NCBI GenBank assembly: GCA_035235625.1
Contig: CP141146.1
Coordinates: 17,230,501-17,294,500, forward strand
DNA length: 64,000 nt
Reading direction: 5' to 3'
Source: Saururus chinensis
Lineage: Eukaryota > Streptophyta > Magnoliopsida > Piperales > Saururaceae
Each line of letters starts with the position of its first letter. Position 1 is the first letter of the stretch. The notes under the pieces were generated by a model. It was given only the letters and a program-made list of their open reading frames with translations. It ran no database searches and was not told where the DNA came from. A program made the position numbers and the translations under genes. This document shows, in pieces, positions 7,436 to 24,564 of this stretch.

Positions 7436-8935
7436 GATCATTGCTGAGCAAGAATAGGTTCAAATTGGTGTTTGAGTCAGAGAAATTTGTCTTGACTAAC
7501 GGTGGGATGTATGTGGCCAAAGGGTACCTTAATGAGGGGCTTTTCAAGCTCAATGTACTAACTATTGTACATGTTGCTAATATTAAGAATGTGAATGCTT
7601 CTTCCTCTTATATGATTGAATCATGTGATGTGTGACATGGTAGATTAGGACATGTTAATTATGACGCTATGCGAAGATTGATTAAAATGAAATATCTGCC
7701 TAAATTTAATATTGACTCTCATCATAAATTTGAAACTTGTGTAGAATCAAAATTGACAGGGAAATCCTTCCAAAGCATTGAGAAATGTACTGAACCACTT
7801 GAGTTAATTCACAACAATGTCTGTGACTTAAAACTTGTTCAAAGGAGGTAAAAAGTACTTTATTACATTTATTGATGATTGCACTCGATATTGTTATGTG
7901 TACTTGTTGAGAAGTAAGGATGAGTTTATAGACATGCTTGTTTTATACAAAACAGAAATTGAGAATCAACTTGGCAAGAAAATAAAAGTTCTAAGGAGTG
8001 ATAGAGGTGAGGAATATGAATCACCTTTTAATAAATTATGTTCACAACATGGTATTATACACCAAACTACAGTACCCTATTCACCTCAACAAAATGGTGT
8101 TGCTGAACAAAAGAATAGAACTTTAAAAGAGATGATGAATGTCATGTTAATAAGTTTTGGGTTACCTCAGAACATGTGGGGGGAAGCTTTGCTTTCAACA
8201 AATTATATTCTTAACAACATACCTCATAAGAAAACCATGTAGACATCATATGAATTATGGAAAGGTCGAAAGCCTTCCTACAAATTCTTAAAGGTGTGGG
8301 GGTGTTTGGCAAAAGTGGTGGTCCCTAATTCCAAAAGGATTAACATTGGACCAAAGGCCATTGATTGTGTATTCATTGGTTATGCCAATAATAGTAGTGC
8401 ATATCACTTTCTTATTCATAAATCGAATATTCTTGATGTAAATGTCATTATTGTGATTGAATCAAGGAATGCTTCATTTTTTAACATATTTTTCCATGAA
8501 ATTATACACAAGAGGAAAGTTCTCTTCAAAGAACTTTGGATGTTGCACAGGACATTAGTGAAGACCAAGAGGGAGAAGATGATGAACCTAGATGTAGTAA
8601 ACGTGCTAGAACATCAAAATCCTTTGGTCCAGATTTTCTAACTTATTTGTTAAAAAATGAGCCTCAAAGCTTTAAGGAAGCCATGTCCTCTTCTAAAGCA
8701 CAATATTGGATAGAGGCTCTAAATAGTGAAATTGAATCTATTATGCAAAATCATACTTGGGAGTTGGTGGACCTTCCACCAGGGAGTAAAACTCTACAAT
8801 ACAAGTGGATATTCAAGAGGAAGATGTTGAAAAATATAAAGTTAGACTTGTTATCAAAGGATACAAGCAAAAAGAAGGTTAAAATTATTTTGATATATAT
8901 TCACCAGTCACAAGGATAACTTCCATTAGGATGTT
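7436..8935 (+). mobile_element. Ty1/copia retrotransposon fossil (integrase to start of reverse transcriptase)
   Basis: The parts in order are a GAG-pre-integrase region (HGRLGHVNYDAMRRL near 7,640), the integrase core (FITFIDDCTRYCYVYLL, then SDRGEEY and the PYSPQQNGVAEQKNRT block, 7,850-8,240), the segment after the integrase (WGCLAKVVVP), and the start of the reverse transcriptase (WIEALNSEIESI, TWELVDLPPG, to about 8,830). This order, with integrase ahead of reverse transcriptase, defines Ty1/copia. Gag, most of the RT, RNase H and both LTRs are missing. The frame is interrupted a handful of times, so it is a dead copy of moderate age. Confidence 0.9.
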
Positions 8936-16867: not shown

Positions 16868-17530
16868 CACTACAACAAAAACACCCTTTTGAAACAAAAG
16901 CTTTTGCCACAAACACAATTTTGTCACAAATAGCATAGTTTTTGCGACAATTTTACAATTTGTTGCAAAAACATTTTACATAGGTGAAATGTTAGTTTTT
17001 TTGTGACAACTACGTTCGTTTGTGGCTAAAAATAAAGTCTTTTGTGACAAATTGTTTATGTTGTCGCAAATACTATCCTCTTTTTGCGACAAATAATATG
17101 TCATTCCAAAACATCACATGTTTTTGCAACAAAAATTATATTTGTCGCAAATGATCTATTTTTTATGTTAATAATTTTTTTGTATATGCTTTTGCGACAA
17201 CTATAAGTAGTCATTGCAAAAGCCTTACAACTGAACATTTTGTGACAAATTAATTTTTGTCCCTAAAAGTTATTTTTTGGGACAGATATTAAAATTCATC
17301 CCAAAAGGGTGTACTTTGAAAATAAGACTGATGGCAAATTGTTTAAAACGATTAAGTAGTTTTATGGCAAATTGTATCGGTTTTTGTAGCCAAATTCAAA
17401 ATATATCCTAAATAGAATTTATTTTATTTTATTTAAAAAAACTATATATTTGAGAGAATTTAAGAAATTTCTTACAAAAAATGTACACATTTTGCAACAA
17501 GTTGGCTAGTTTGTGGCAAATAAGAATTTT
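16868..17530. repeat. Left subterminal repeat array of the CACTA element
   Basis: Motifs of the form tttgcgacaa, tgtcgcaaa and close variants occur in both orientations roughly every 40-70 bp. In this superfamily such repeats are the transposase binding sites. The matching right array lies at 23,700-24,190. Confidence 0.8.
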
Positions 17531-18436
17531 TATAACAATTTTTAAAACTCGTCAAAAATAGTATTTAAAATATTTATTATTAAAATAAAAAATAGTTTAA
17601 GTCAAAAATAATTTTTTCAAATGGATTTCCCACTACGTTAACAAACTATAGGGATATTTTGTATGCATATATTTTGATAGACTCTATTATGCTTATTTTT
17701 AATGAGTTTCCAAACACGTCATTGGTGACATTTTTTTTAAATCAAAACTTTTATAGTTTTTTAAAATTAAATAATTTTTATACATGATTAAAGTTCTTTT
17801 TTAAAATAAAAAATTTCATAAATATATATGTTAGTTATGTAGCACCATATATCATATGTAGGATATAATAAATTACATGGATACATATTTTAATATGTAA
17901 AAAAATAGAAATACATAAATTGATTGATTAATATTTTCCAAATAATATGTGATATTTAACAAATGATCATTAATAGGTATGAAATGATAAGTAACAAATG
18001 ATTAATATTTTCCAAATAAAAAATTGTTATTAGTGACGTTTTTAAAAGCGTCGTTGCTATTTAAGAAATGGTAAACCTGAATCTAACCTGGATAGTTATT
18101 TGGGTTAAATTTGGAAACCAAAACCCGACCTATTAGTGTTAGGTCGGGTAGAGTTGGGTTTTATCATAATATAAAGAAAATTATAAAAAAATAATATTTA
18201 TAACCTTATTCATGTCGGGTTTTTTCAAACCCGAACTCGATACCATTTAATAAATGATAATCTTGAATCCGACCCTAATAGCAATTCGGGTTAAATTTAA
18301 AAACTCAAACCTAACCCATTACGGTCAGGTAATGTCGGGTTTTATAGCATACCCAACCCAAGTTGCATCCCTACTCTTGTCTCAGGATAGGTTGGGTCCA
18401 AACATTGAGTTCGTATATTAAGTAGGTCCAATAAAT

Positions 18437-19876
18437 AGGGGTGTTCACGAACAAATACGGACGCGAACAGAGGTATCTCTGCGTCCGTCCGTGTCTGCTA
18501 ATGTTTGTAGCATTTATTATCCAAGTCCGTCTGTCACGGACATGGACAAGTAAGTCAAATCTCAATTTTGTATCAAATAGATCTAACAAACAGTAATTGA
18601 GTAAAAAAATAGTGTAAAATAAAAAGTCTGGCATTCTCAGATTATAAAGCCCACGAACATTTATCTCCAAAATACAAGCGAACAAAGAACAACAATTGCC
18701 CATGAAAACAAAAGACCCATTGCACTTAATTCTCCAAAATCAAATTCCACCCACCAAGCATCATACTTAAAAAAAAAGCACAAATACGAAGTAGCAACTT
18801 TAGATCATGATTTTTAACCCAAAAAACAAAAACAAAAGAAAATAAAACAAAAACCGACAGATCATGATCGCATAATCACATGGGGATGAGTGAGTTCTTC
18901 CTATCAGCAGTGTAGGCCATCGGCCCAGAAGATCAAGGTTAATGCAAACAGCCCCAGGGTTGACAAAGGAGAAATGCTCCCCAACAGAGAAATCCTTGTC
19001 TACATACCCAAATTTGAGTTAAGGCCAAGCTCTTCACTCGTTTCCTTGGGAGACTGTCTGACTAGAGTAAACAGATAGTAGGGTCTCAAGAAGACTGTTA
19101 AATGTAATACAAATTTCTTGACACCCACTTGCCCAATCTCCTTCACGACAACTGTGAGGAAGAGGAGTTAAGAGGTAGGCTTGAGGCTGGAGGTTGTATT
19201 GACAACTCTGCTCTATATGCTCACTGCCAAGCTACAGGAACAACCTCAATCAGCAGACGTGAACAACCTCAGATGGGGAGGAGGAGGCAGAACAACCTCA
19301 ACTGGTGCATCTGAAGGTGGGGGAAGGGGTGCAATTTGGCAGACGGGAGACGGGGCATACCTGGCGGCGATCCTCAGAAGACCTTCAAACATAGTAGCGA
19401 AGTTGAGGTCCTGAGGAAGCGGTGCGGCGATGACTACAAATAGGCAGCGGCTACGATCCAGAGACGAGAGATGGCCACGATCTAGATGACCAAGATCCAG
19501 ACGGGAGATGGGAGACGAAAGACAGCCACGATGCAGACCGAAGATGGCCACGATCTAGACGAAAGACCGGAGATGGCCACGATCCAAAAGGAGATCCGGC
19601 AAGGTTTAAAGGTGGAGACTTTTCTGAGAAGTGGCCATAGGAGAGGCAGAGCGGCGCAACTACTGTAGCACTAGAGACGGGCAGGCGGTGGCGCTTGTGT
19701 TTATTGTAGCAGTAATACCCAAACTAGTAATTTGGAACTTAGGTGATTGAAGTGGACAATGGTTTGTCCGCGTCCGTAGACACCTACAAGGACGGACTGA
19801 TTAAATAGTCCGCGTCTGTGTTCGTCATTACGGAGGCGGACGGTCAAATGACATTGGACGTCCAGGAACACCCCTA
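18437..19876. mobile_element. Non-autonomous hAT element nested in the CACTA
   Basis: The ends are taggggtgttcacgaa and, reverse-complemented, taggggtgttcctgga: an 11-bp perfect terminal inverted repeat. The 8-bp sequence ccaataaa lies directly on both sides (18,429-18,436 and 19,877-19,884), the diagnostic duplication size of hAT elements. Subterminal gtccgt/acggac motifs recur near both ends. The 1.4-kb interior has only short frames with no hAT transposase or dimerisation domain, so the element depended on transposase supplied elsewhere. It inserted after the CACTA had formed. Confidence 0.9.
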
Positions 19877-20080
19877 CCAATAAATTTGGTTCCTACATAA
19901 GGTCGGATCCAAAAAACTTAAACTCCTACCTTAGGTCGGGCCTATAGAACCCGGACTATCCCGAGCCAAAATGCAACCCCATTAAAACCTATTACACAAA
20001 AGGTAAATATTTCACTTGCTTGCACTTGGCCATGAGCAGGATTCCCGCGCAAATGAAATTTCCCTCTTCCGCCAGTAGCC

Positions 20081-20602
20081 CTCTCCCGCCAGTAGCCCAC
20101 TCGGCCACGATGATCTGTTCCATGGTCTCCAAGATTTTGGAAGTCTACTAGTCCATTTTGCCCTATAGCTCTTCCACTGATCTGCCCTGCGTGATCCTGC
20201 TCTGCTTCCAATGGCGTTGATGACATCTTGATTCTAGGTTCATCGTGCTACAATCGGGCTCCCACCACGCACACAACCTTCTTCCCTCCACGGCACTGTA
20301 AGCCCCAACCTTGACAATCCTCCTCTTTATTGACCTCTCCCACCAGTAGCCCACTCGGCCACGATGATCTGTTCAATGGTCTCCAAGATTTCGGAAGTTT
20401 GCTAGTCTATTTTTCCCTAACAGCTCTTCCACTGATCTGCTCTGCGTGATCCTGCTCTACTGCAATAGGGCTTCCAATGGTGTGATGACATCTTGATTCT
20501 GGGTTCATCGGGCTACAATCGGGCTCCCACCTCCACGCCCACAACCTTCTTCCCTCCACGGCACTGCAAGCCCCAACCTTGACAATCCTCCTCTTTATTG
20601 AT
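20081..20602 (+). repeat. Tandem duplication, two units of about 255-268 bp
   Basis: Unit 1 (20,081-20,334) and unit 2 (20,335-20,602) share nearly all of their text, for example ggccacgatgatctgttc, tcttccactgatctgc and acaaccttcttccctcca. Unit 2 has a small insertion (ctgcaataggg). The block lies inside the CACTA, just upstream of the captured exons, and may be captured 5' gene DNA. No protein is recognised. Confidence 0.85.
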
Positions 20603-21810
20603 CATCTTCATCTTCAGTTCGCACTACTGCAATTAGATTTTGGGCTACTAGTTATTTCGTGAAAACCAGGTTATCCTCATCTTCACATCTATGTCTCCCT
20701 CTAAATATTTTCTGGGATATTTTCTTTAACCAAAACATCTTCCTTGCCGTCTCTCTATCAATTTGCAGAGTCGAAGGTGGTATTTTTAATGTTGGATTCA
20801 AACTGAATTTCATACTTTAAAGACCTTCAGTGCACAAGCAGAGGTGAGGAAACTATCTATTTGTAGCCTTGCTTGATTTATTTATTTATGGTTGCGTAAA
20901 TTTCTTTGGGGTACATGTGTGGCTATAGTTTAGTGGTGAGAATTCCACGTTGTGTGAAATCTTCCTATTTTAAAACTTGTGTTTAATCTTCCTATTTTAA
21001 AACTTGTGTCTAAGCTAATTTTGGTAAATGGCCATTTGCACCTGCACCGACATAAGATGGAGAATCTTGTTTAAAACCCTTATTCAGTGAGTTGCATAAC
21101 TGCTATGAGCAGGGAGCTGGTTCACTCGTTCCAATTCTGCCTTATGTTTGTTTCAACTTTGGCATCAAAAAGTTTGTGCTTGACGAGTTCTGCTCATAAT
21201 GAAATGGAATTTTTCATGCATGTTTACATAGGATATGTAGTCTGTAAGATATATGGATTTGTTTAGAAAAGGATAGAATCTAATATTGACTACCAATAGA
21301 AGAATCTATTATTGTTCAGAAAATGATAGAATCTATTATTGATCAGTGTGGGGTTAGTGTTGGCTTCCTATTTATTATTTGCTTGAAGCAAAATAGTGAG
21401 CTTAATTTTTGAGTGTTGAGTTCCATATGATATTTGTCCTTAGGGGATTTCCTGTTTCGTTCTTTTTTGTGTTGGTGATCTTCATTTTTTTACCAAGATT
21501 GTCATTAATCCTTAGCTTTTTTGTGAATGTATGAATCAAGGAGCACAAGGAGGTATGCGCTTGAGTTTTGCACTACAAAGATATTTTATAAAATTTGTAC
21601 TGCAAAACGAAGAAGCATACATCCTTGTGCTCCTGATGGTGTATGCGGAGCTGGAGGAGAAAACTTTGATGGTGAGTCTAGAAAAGCTCGCTCAGGTAAT
21701 GTAATGGTACGACTGAATTCAAGTTAGGATTTATGGATTTGCCACTGCAACAAGGCCTTAGTTGTAAAATCAATTTCAAGCATATGGCTAGAAATGGTTT
21801 TGTCATGCAG

Positions 21811-22097
21811 GGTGGCGGCGTTCATTTCTGTCTCCTGTCCAAAGTGCGATATGATATTGGAGATGCATGTTCATTAGATTACCTCATAGACAATATCTTC
21901 CCATTGTTCAGAAAGCATATTGAGCCTGACCTCCACCATGCTCAGGTTTCTTTTTTTTCTGGAATAGAAATGTCTTTTTTATTTCTTCTTGTTGATTGAC
22001 TTGCTTCTCTTTTGATTTTGCCTCTCAGATCAGGATCAATAACAGATTTGTTTCATCTTTTAGAGAGCCATACTACAAACTTAAATGCAGAAATGAG
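21811..22097 (+). pseudogene. Captured exons of a uridine kinase-family protein
   Basis: Two exons with canonical borders lie here: 21,811-21,945 (after tgtcatgcag, before gtttc) and 22,029-22,097 (after cctctcag, before gtctg). They read without a stop in one phase as 45 and 23 codons. The first contains SLDYLIDNIFPLFRKHIEPD and LHHAQ, the second IRINNRFVSSFREPYYKLKC. The FIEP-type block followed by an I-N-N strand fits the C-terminal side of the uridine kinase/phosphoribulokinase fold in plant P-loop kinases. Only these pieces of the donor gene are present and the P-loop is absent. The 83-bp intron between them is kept, so capture was from genomic DNA and not from cDNA. The family name is recalled from motif similarity and is moderately certain. 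Confidence 0.6.
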
Positions 22098-22691
22098 GTC
22101 TGTTTTTGCCAGGTACTATAGCTATTTGTATTGGATATCAACTTTGATTTTCTGTTGGCTGTCTTCCCTGTTGGTGTTGTAGTTGTTTTATTATAACAGG
22201 AGTTTTTTTGTTTTTTCCCCTTTCAAGATCATTTTAGGCTTGCGAAATGTGAACCTCTAGAACTAGGGCTCAAAGCATGCCACTGATATAACTAAAAGCA
22301 GGTCAATTAAATAGGAAAACACTAATTTTCAGCTAATCGGAAGTAAGATTATGTTCATTTATTGGATAAAGTGGTCAACTATCTGATTGAGTTGAAATTT
22401 TGTGTGCCCAACTTCCACTGTTTTTCTTCCATCTCCCGACCTCAGATTGGTGAGCTAATAATTAGCATATGCATCATACTAAATTGTGGTGGCTTCTCAT
22501 GGGAAAATACTGCTGCAGTAGTTATGCTCATGGATTAAGTTCTGTCATTGTTTTGAAGAGGTCATAGGGAATCATTTAGGTTTTGTGAGAACATGAACTA
22601 CACTTTTATCTTAAATTAAAATGCAAGGAACAAAAAAGCTTCGGCTGATGTTTGTTATGCCATTTGTGATGGCCTTTTTGTTGTATGTTAG

Positions 22692-22922
22692 GTGTTTCGG
22701 AGATGAAGATCTGAGAACAGATCGACAGCCTGAGTTTACTCAGCTTGATATGGAATTGGCTTTCACACCTTTGGAGGACATGCTGAAAATAAATGAAGAT
22801 TTAATCAAACATGTTAGCGAGGTGATCTTATCTTGTTTGCTGTTGGGCCTTGTACGACAGTTAGTAAGACCCTTGACCGGCTCCGGATATTTACAGGTCA
22901 CCAATTGGGATTGATTGACCAT
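22692..22922 (+). pseudogene. Captured exons of an organellar-type aspartyl-tRNA synthetase
   Basis: Exon one (22,692-22,821; acceptor tgttag, donor gaggtgat) reads [20 protein letters not shown], then [20 protein letters not shown]. This is the class II motif 2 block of bacterial and organellar AspRS, normally [16 protein letters not shown]. Exon two (22,861-22,922; donor gtaagt) reads [20 protein letters not shown], the block shortly before the HSILWVTDFP region. In the intact enzyme these blocks are separated by well over a hundred residues, but here by only 39 bp, shorter than a normal plant intron, so the middle exons were lost. The motif 2 arginine that binds ATP is glycine here. The fragment cannot charge tRNA. 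It is cargo of the CACTA element. Confidence 0.85.
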
Positions 22923-23440
22923 GTAAGTTTCATCACACTTTTTCAGAACTAATTATGAATGGTAGTTTTATTAGCTACTTACTTGATTAGCAGATGTGCA
23001 GTAATTCAAAAAAATGTTAATGATCACACTTTGGCTATCTAAATATTTTTGCACACAAGTTGGTCTCAATTGGCTGTCTGTGTGAAGATAGTTGACAGAA
23101 AACTTTAAAGTTTTCATTTGATAAGTTCACTTCTAATAATTACATACTTTGCTGCGTTATAACTAATTTGTGCAGAAGTGGACAATGTGACTTGTGGGGA
23201 AAGTAATGATTTGGCTTACAGTATGCACTAGTCATTTTTGTGGCACATATCATGCATTTTGTAGGCTATTTTTTGAAGTATTAATACTTATTATAATAGA
23301 TGGTTTATTTCATTTTAGAAGGTTAAATTCTCCCATTGGGCGTGAATGCTACTTATTACTGAGATATGAGCTTTAATTTTGACTTCTGCTTATTCTGTGC
23401 GTGAGACATGATTTGTACCTATTTTGCCTTGAATTTGCAG

Positions 23441-23502
23441 CTCTAGTTAAGGATGGAATTGTTTCTATTCTTTTAAAAGAAAACCAAAAGGAAAATGTTC
23501 AT
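23441..23502 (+). pseudogene. Possible third captured exon, unrecognised
   Basis: A 62-bp segment between a good acceptor (gaatttgcag) and donor (atgtaagctt) reads LVKDGIVSILLKENQKENVH without a stop. It lies downstream of the AspRS pieces in the same orientation. I cannot place it in AspRS or in the kinase. It may be a third captured gene or a chance frame. Confidence 0.3.
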
Positions 23503-23649
23503 GTAAGCTTAAATTAATATCCTATGTTATGCCTTAATACATATGTCTTATATCAATGTGAGAATTCCATAAATCTGATATCAATGTTGAGCTTTTTTGT
23601 GGAAGTAACAATATTTATGTTCAAGTTTAACTTGATATTTTATTAATTT

Positions 23650-24214
23650 TTTTAAATGTATTTTTCTACAAGAAAATATTTTTTTTCAAAATTTAAATGC
23701 TTTTACAACGAACTTTTTTTGTCCCAAATAGTCTTGCATATACATTTTGGGACACAAAACTTTGTCGCAAATACTAAAGACAATAAATCAAAAGTAGTTT
23801 TTGGGACAAATATATTTGTGGCAAATATATTTTCTCATTTTGGAATAATTAATTATTGTTACAAATACAACACATTTATAATTTTGAAAAAATTATTTGC
23901 AACAAATTTATTTCGTCGCAAATACAAAATTATTTTTTAATTATTTATTTTTTTGTGACAATTTTTTTTGGATTTTATCCAAATATAATTATAGCAATTT
24001 GCGACGAAAAAACTTATCTTTTGCGACGTATAATATTGTCGCAAATGTGTACTTTTTGGGACAAAATTAAGTTTGTTGCAAAAAATCTTTTGAGACGAGC
24101 CTTTTGCGACAACTATGGGACGAACTTTTTTTTGTCGCAAAAAACCTTTTGCGACAAAATTAGTATCTTTTGTGATAAATTAATTTGTTGTAAAAAGCCA
24201 AATTTGTTGTAGTG
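23650..24214. repeat. Right subterminal repeat array of the CACTA element
   Basis: Dense copies of tttgcgac, gtcgcaaa and gggacaaa variants in both orientations end in tttgttgtagtg, the right terminus. The array mirrors the one at 16,868-17,530. Confidence 0.8.
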
Positions 24215-24257
24215 ACATGACTTGCCCACAATGTATCCACAACGTGCTTTGTAATGG

Positions 24258-24564
24258 GGCAAAAGTTTATAAGAGCATGGGCTCATACGCGACTGCGTGA
24301 GCCTAGGCTAGCACAATTGCATGAGCCTAAGCCCTTAAGGCCGTCGGATTTAGATCTGACGGCCCATATTACTTAGGTAGTAAATGCCCCTTAAGTAACG
24401 TGGGCTATCGGATTTAAATCGTTAGCCCAAGCCCTTAGGACCATCGGATTGAGATCTAATAGTCCACATTACTCAGGGAGTAAATGCCCCTGAGTAACGT
24501 GGTTCGACAGCCCTAAGGGCTTGGGCTCATGCAATCACACGCGAGCCACTTATAAATGGGCCTC
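24258..24564. mobile_element. Mutator-type MITE, 307 bp, 9-bp TSD
   Basis: The 9-bp word ttgtaatgg occurs at 24,249-24,257 and at 24,565-24,573. Between them the ends are inverted: ggcaaaagtttataagagc on the left and, reverse-complemented, gaggcccatttataagtgg on the right. The inside is two diverged units of about 100 bp (each starting gcccttaagg or gcccttagga), each with a short palindrome around agatct. A 9-bp duplication with inverted ends points to the Mutator superfamily. It landed 43 bp from the CACTA end. Confidence 0.75.

Follow-up and report, generated by a model that had tools for sequence, protein, structure and literature searches.

The soybean CACTA transposon Tgm-Express1 carries fragments of several host genes together with introns and gives rise to spliced chimeric RNAs (Zabala and Vodkin 2007, PMC1947982; statements about this paper, PMC8903248 and PMC13317346 refer to the parts of their texts available to us), and maize Pack-TYPE elements often carry coding DNA of several loci, the Pack-CACTAs most of all (PMC8903248). 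We describe here an element of this kind from Saururus chinensis, located in a 64,000-nucleotide stretch of DNA (the window, C7:17230501-17294500) of the 516-Mb, 11-contig assembly that was searched. Our analysis makes it very probable that the element is a non-autonomous Pack-CACTA whose interior was replaced by copied pieces of unlinked genes, one of the uridine-kinase family and one for an aspartyl-tRNA synthetase (AspRS), and which later moved as a unit with a cargo that is most likely a passenger. Gene capture of this kind is known; the first-pass annotation of this DNA had called the combination undescribed, which can hold for this gene pair only, since multi-gene, intron-bearing CACTA elements have already been published (PMC1947982, PMC8903248). 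Searches of an open library, which speak for that library only, found no publication on a CACTA element with a captured AspRS or uridine kinase. The features that carry this reading, in window coordinates, are:

16868-24214, forward strand: whole non-autonomous Pack-CACTA, 7,347 bp, with both ends and target-site duplication (TSD); full-length copies on C10 and C3
16865-16867, no strand: left TSD, ACA
24215-24217, no strand: right TSD, ACA
21778-22110, forward strand: captured uridine-kinase (PRK/TTM)-family fragment, 333 bp, two exons and an intron
21811-21945, forward strand: uridine-kinase-family exon a, 135 nt
22029-22097, forward strand: uridine-kinase-family exon b, 69 nt
22106-22110, forward strand: 5-bp microhomology TTGCC at the kinase/AspRS join
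22106-23299, forward strand: captured AspRS fragment (bacterial/organellar type), introns included; two blocks with 94-95% identity to C9:36094839-36096899
22692-22812, forward strand: AspRS exon A, Pfam tRNA-synt_2, E 9.7e-13
22816-22922, forward strand: surviving 3' part (107 bases) of a later AspRS exon, without acceptor and out of frame

The 5' terminus at 16868 reads CACTACAACAAAAA and the 3' terminus, TTTGTTGTAGTG, stops at 24214; the element starts with CACTA and finishes with TAGTG, as elements of this superfamily do, and both ends abut a perfect ACA, as the first-pass annotation had it. It had proposed to look for other copies with these ends and this cargo, and two were found, at C10:20275448-20283367 (7,920 bp, TSD TGG) and C3:5075581-5083001 (7,421 bp, TSD AAA), so that the three insertions hold the same cargo between matching ends and each has a perfect TSD of its own; the cargo has moved together with the ends. 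The duplications are 3 bp long, the usual length for CACTA elements. Those of the rice and maize CACTAs studied in PMC8903248 are reported to be 5 nt. Repeated subterminal motifs (families D1, D3, D4 and D8) are present near both termini. None of the ten open reading frames (ORFs) of at least 80 amino acids in the element matches a transposase model, and the lack of TNP2 coding is expected because the element is a non-autonomous derivative; the TNP2 model (PF02992) has 152 matches across the genome. The copies are about 4% diverged (whole-element pairwise Kimura two-parameter distances 0.039-0.043) in a nearly star-like pattern, with 112, 148 and 133 private sites in the C7, C10 and C3 copies, respectively. 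Plant substitution rates are about 0.65-1.3e-8 per site per year, and very roughly the divergence of the copies would be 1.5-3 million years old, a figure that methylation likely biases upward.

Between these ends lie pieces of two host genes that reside elsewhere, at C2 and C9. Because the cargo aligns at 94-95% identity to single loci and the same mosaic is found in three insertions, it is not a product of chance, and the alignments to donors in the same genome (95% at C2, 94-95% at C9) bear out the earlier suggestion that intron-bearing genomic DNA was taken up, in one orientation, from two unrelated genes. The first piece is identical to C2:50222668-50223000 at 318 of 333 positions, and C2 is the sole non-element locus that matches it (all 11 candidates were scored). 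Its two exons and their intron had been correctly recognized at the outset, and their AG and GT splice dinucleotides are intact in all three copies; the C3 copy carries a 4-bp deletion in exon b. The peptide of the joined exons matches Arabidopsis TTM1 (PDB 7z66) with an E value of 1.2e-6, and no Pfam family was matched by that peptide. At C2 there are flanking reading frames on both sides, seemingly of the same gene, of which two contain GxxGSGKT motifs, and a downstream stretch (two ORFs joined manually) matches Pfam PRK/uridine kinase with an E value of 1e-15. The element majority differs from the donor at 7 of 204 sites in the exons and 7 of 129 in the intron plus flank, too few differences to argue for selection.

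The second piece was described in the first-pass annotation as two AspRS exons. Exon A stands, and its best PDB matches are bacterial-type AspRSs; the second exon survives only as a 3' remnant in the window. Of the usable splice sites that had been claimed, those of the kinase exons are retained; the acceptor of this remnant has been deleted. The window copy alone has a deletion of about 575 bp, which took out a further exon, intron sequence, and the acceptor and 5' part of the later exon, and fused the remnant out of frame to the donor site of exon A. Measured against C9, about 269 bp are missing from the C10 and C3 copies and about 850 bp from the window copy, which is why the remnant nearly abuts exon A in the latter. 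The bacterial-type AspRS model (24 matches in the search, none over the curated cut-off) spans from start to end (2 to 584, in several exons) only at C9; further matches on C3, C6 and C8 are weak and comprise one exon each. The next two loci in this search, considered as other working bacterial-type AspRS genes, are not such genes: C4:12041334 is a cytosolic-type AspRS and C10:17317256 a LysRS. Used jointly as a query, two AspRS exons matched only C9, the three transposon copies and a fragment on C10 (all nine candidates scored). This last, C10:5834126-5837158, is a partial AspRS duplicate that retains introns and terminates in a 93-bp repeat that is also found in the cargo.

The remaining parts of the mosaic are:

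16868-18052, forward strand: left terminal and subterminal region, common to many family members and rich in TTTTGCGACAAA-type repeats
18059-18435, forward strand: interior region in common with cargo-free relatives
18436-19876, no strand: nested hAT-like insertion, 1,441 bp, with 11-bp terminal inverted repeat (TIR) TAGGGGTGTTC and 8-bp TSD CCAATAAA
19877-21142, forward strand: interior region in common with relatives
21140-21595, forward strand: dispersed-repeat piece, first part of the cargo; best match 88%, C3:22714142-22714596; 3-bp CCT overlap with the parent
21539-21634, no strand: hairpin of two 41-nt arms, 83% complementary
21633-21707, forward strand: 75-bp dispersed-repeat piece, found at 5 other places (87-93%)
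23304-23396, forward strand: short dispersed repeat, 93 bp, with 15 other full-length genomic places listed
23406-24214, forward strand: right terminal region of the CACTA family

The left region and the two interior stretches recur, entirely or partially, in relatives without the cargo. In all five aligned relatives the match to the element ends at about 21142, and they run on together into other sequence where the cargo copies have the cargo; three more relatives stop earlier, two at 20792 and a third, whose fetched stretch ends nearby, at 20962. The nested insertion, which we take to be hAT-like from its TIR and TSD length (an earlier reading as a MULE with a 9-bp TSD was replaced), is missing in all six relatives printed, two of which carry mutations at the site. 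It is present in all three cargo copies, that on C3 with a 451-bp gap, and therefore probably arrived before those copies spread. Sequence related to it is also present at C1:62898500-62903500. The C3 locus that best matches the first part of the cargo carries an aspartyl-protease-like reading frame. The 75-bp piece is a member of a dispersed repeat, which rules it out as a third captured gene; its other copies sit in loci with frames that we take to be H+-ATPase-like and VPS53-like. About 70 bases upstream of 21778 match no assigned component.

The two captured pieces meet at five bases, TTGCC, that belong to both. At least five shared bases at such a junction arose in 0.8% of 200,000 random position pairs drawn from the kinase and AspRS loci; at the left border of the cargo, the CCT overlap with the parent by itself says little, because at least three bases were shared in 6.7% of the same draws. 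These junctions are consistent with a history in which a parent CACTA element would have lost its interior and the gap would have been refilled by copying unlinked templates, namely a dispersed repeat, the C2 uridine-kinase-family gene, and the AspRS gene at C9 or its close relative, the C10 fragment. The templates would have been joined where they shared a few identical bases, most likely through template switches in the course of post-excision repair. The filled element would then have been mobile as a unit, with TNP2 transposase presumably supplied in trans, and would have left behind at least three copies that subsequently decayed independently. Signs of that decay are the private deletion of about 575 bp in the window copy, the 4-bp deletion and a stop in the C3 copy, and an early stop beyond the gene join in all three.

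Several points weigh against this interpretation. The proposed repair step draws on two overlaps, of 5 bp and 3 bp, at two of the joins. The AspRS piece may come from the lineage of the C10 fragment instead of directly from the C9 gene: left of the right break, 53 sites of the element match C9 alone and 32 match C10 alone, and at 20 sites C9 and C10 share a base that the element lacks. The junction between AspRS sequence and the 93-bp repeat is common to the elements and the C10 fragment and is absent at C9, which leaves two possibilities, a change at C9 or descent of the cargo from the C10 lineage. An autonomous partner with these exact ends was not identified. Finally, a paralogous empty site was not found among the 40 of 194 candidates that were scored, as the left flank matches itself alone and the right flank enters another repeat.

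The published mechanism for Pack-CACTAs, proposed for those of Arabidopsis, is capture by tandem insertion, in which neighbouring elements flank donor DNA and an aberrant excision yields a hybrid element (PMC13317346, PMC8903248). Although this precedent speaks for it, we think such a route unlikely here. The two donors are on different chromosomes and are joined directly to one another at a microhomology, and at least two such events would be needed. Neither of the words CACTACAA and TTGTAGTG is present in the 9.9 kb that surround the C2 donor; the 17 kb that surround the C9 donor contain three of them, none of which resembles an element end.

It is also quite unlikely that another vehicle, such as a Helitron or a Pack-MULE, assembled the gene pieces and then entered the CACTA element. 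Nested insertion certainly exists here (the hAT-like element), and the separate AspRS fragment on C10 has the same right break as the cargo. A parallel might also be sought in two CACTA relatives, C7:13488817-13495669 (TSD CAA) and C3:34463983-34472271 (TSD TTC), which hold a piece of an ankyrin gene (Pfam names only ankyrin repeats in it; the label "SPL-like" is our own presumption). At 10 other loci that carry this piece, the 1.7 kb fetched beyond it contain no CACTA right end, as might be the case for a piece carried by some other vehicle; for the same reason we do not count it as a CACTA capture, and reject gene capture throughout the family. On the other hand, the kinase and AspRS pair is found solely within the three CACTA copies, and no inverted repeats surround 21140-23405 among the best 25 of 129 pairs by length (Helitron ends were not scanned). 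Elsewhere in the family, F-box/FBD-type leucine-rich repeat frames (Pfam PF23622) lie on the opposite strand between CACTA-family end matches at C1:28790995-28809148, and might be another captured piece or a nested gene.

A working exon shuffler, or a source of small interfering RNAs, is what the arrangement of the exons might at first suggest: the captured exons share one orientation, the kinase exons have kept their GT and AG dinucleotides, and chimeric RNAs have been reported for Tgm-Express1 (PMC1947982). When the kinase exons are spliced to exon A of AspRS, however, a stop follows 4 (window), 13 (C10) and 17 (C3) codons beyond the junction with either of two donor sites. In the C3 copy the 4-bp deletion makes the fused frame coincide with the AspRS frame, yet exon A there holds a TAG of its own. 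A chimeric protein is unlikely because the stop comes soon after the join in all three copies, and the copies have moreover decayed independently. As judged from the DNA, a chimeric transcript is conceivable and an effect of small RNAs on the donor genes is possible in principle; the copies on C7, C10 and C3 have 76, 49 and 49 exact 24-mers (of 158) in common with the kinase donor exons and 47, 103 and 146 (of 443) with three AspRS exons, the first of which was counted with a few intron bases. We regard it as very unlikely that the element works by producing chimeric RNA, chimeric protein or small RNAs directed at its donors; most likely the cargo travels as a passenger and has no protein product, and where new proteins are concerned the element looks inert. 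That the region is part of an ordinary host gene, to which exons with introns might have pointed, can be dismissed, as the element matches the captured stretches only, the flanking exons reside at C2 and C9, and the TSDs differ in the three copies.

The sole surprising part of the analysis concerns the resident AspRS gene (locus C9:36091538-36101706), whose reading frame contains a TGA at C9:36096047-36096049 (VTSIF*ETTFK). This TGA recurs in the partial copy on C10; the transposon copies on C10 and C3 have a serine codon at this position (the window copy has lost the exon). C9 also reads RAYRQPEF, with an unusual Y, vs RADRQPDF in PDB 1efw. The TGA would reflect either a decaying gene, or splicing round the stop, or a working copy that the assembly lacks. 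For splicing round it, an in-frame AG shortly beyond the TGA could serve as acceptor, and its use would leave out seven codons together with the stop. The transposon copies seem to keep the older AspRS state, so capture was probably earlier than the TGA mutation. That they are a fossil of the AspRS gene from before its decay, with the capture predating the loss, would be an outside chance; if true, small RNAs of the amplified capture could even have aided the silencing and erosion of the donor gene.

Two other features of the window lie outside the element. An inverted repeat with 31-nt arms (90%) in its right flank, 24316-24535, belongs to a repeat with dozens of genomic copies and is probably a miniature inverted-repeat transposable element, and reading frames at 7832-8916 resemble pieces of integrase and polyprotein that we take to be of the Ty1/copia type.

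The very probable capture by a CACTA element described here is a well-resolved multi-gene case, for a single genome shows the parent's relatives, both donors, the junction between them and the three later copies. Its microhomology between unlinked donors bears on how DNA transposons collect unlinked gene fragments, a question left open in a 2026 review (PMC13317346). Like Pack-MULEs and gene-capturing Helitrons, the element carries transduplicated gene fragments as cargo, and unlike them it has CACTA ends and a 3-bp TSD (PMC13317346). It differs from the Pack-CACTAs of PMC8903248 in the genes captured and in the 5-bp microhomology that joins donors on different chromosomes; the word "microhomology" is absent from that paper, as far as its text was available to us. 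A close likeness is to Tgm-Express1 (PMC1947982), in which CACTA ends likewise enclose exons and introns of unrelated genes with canonical splice sites kept. Tgm-Express1 has five gene fragments, lies in an F3H intron and has proven chimeric transcripts, whereas the Saururus element has two gene fragments plus repeat pieces, lies at a site where no host gene was seen, and is present in three copies.

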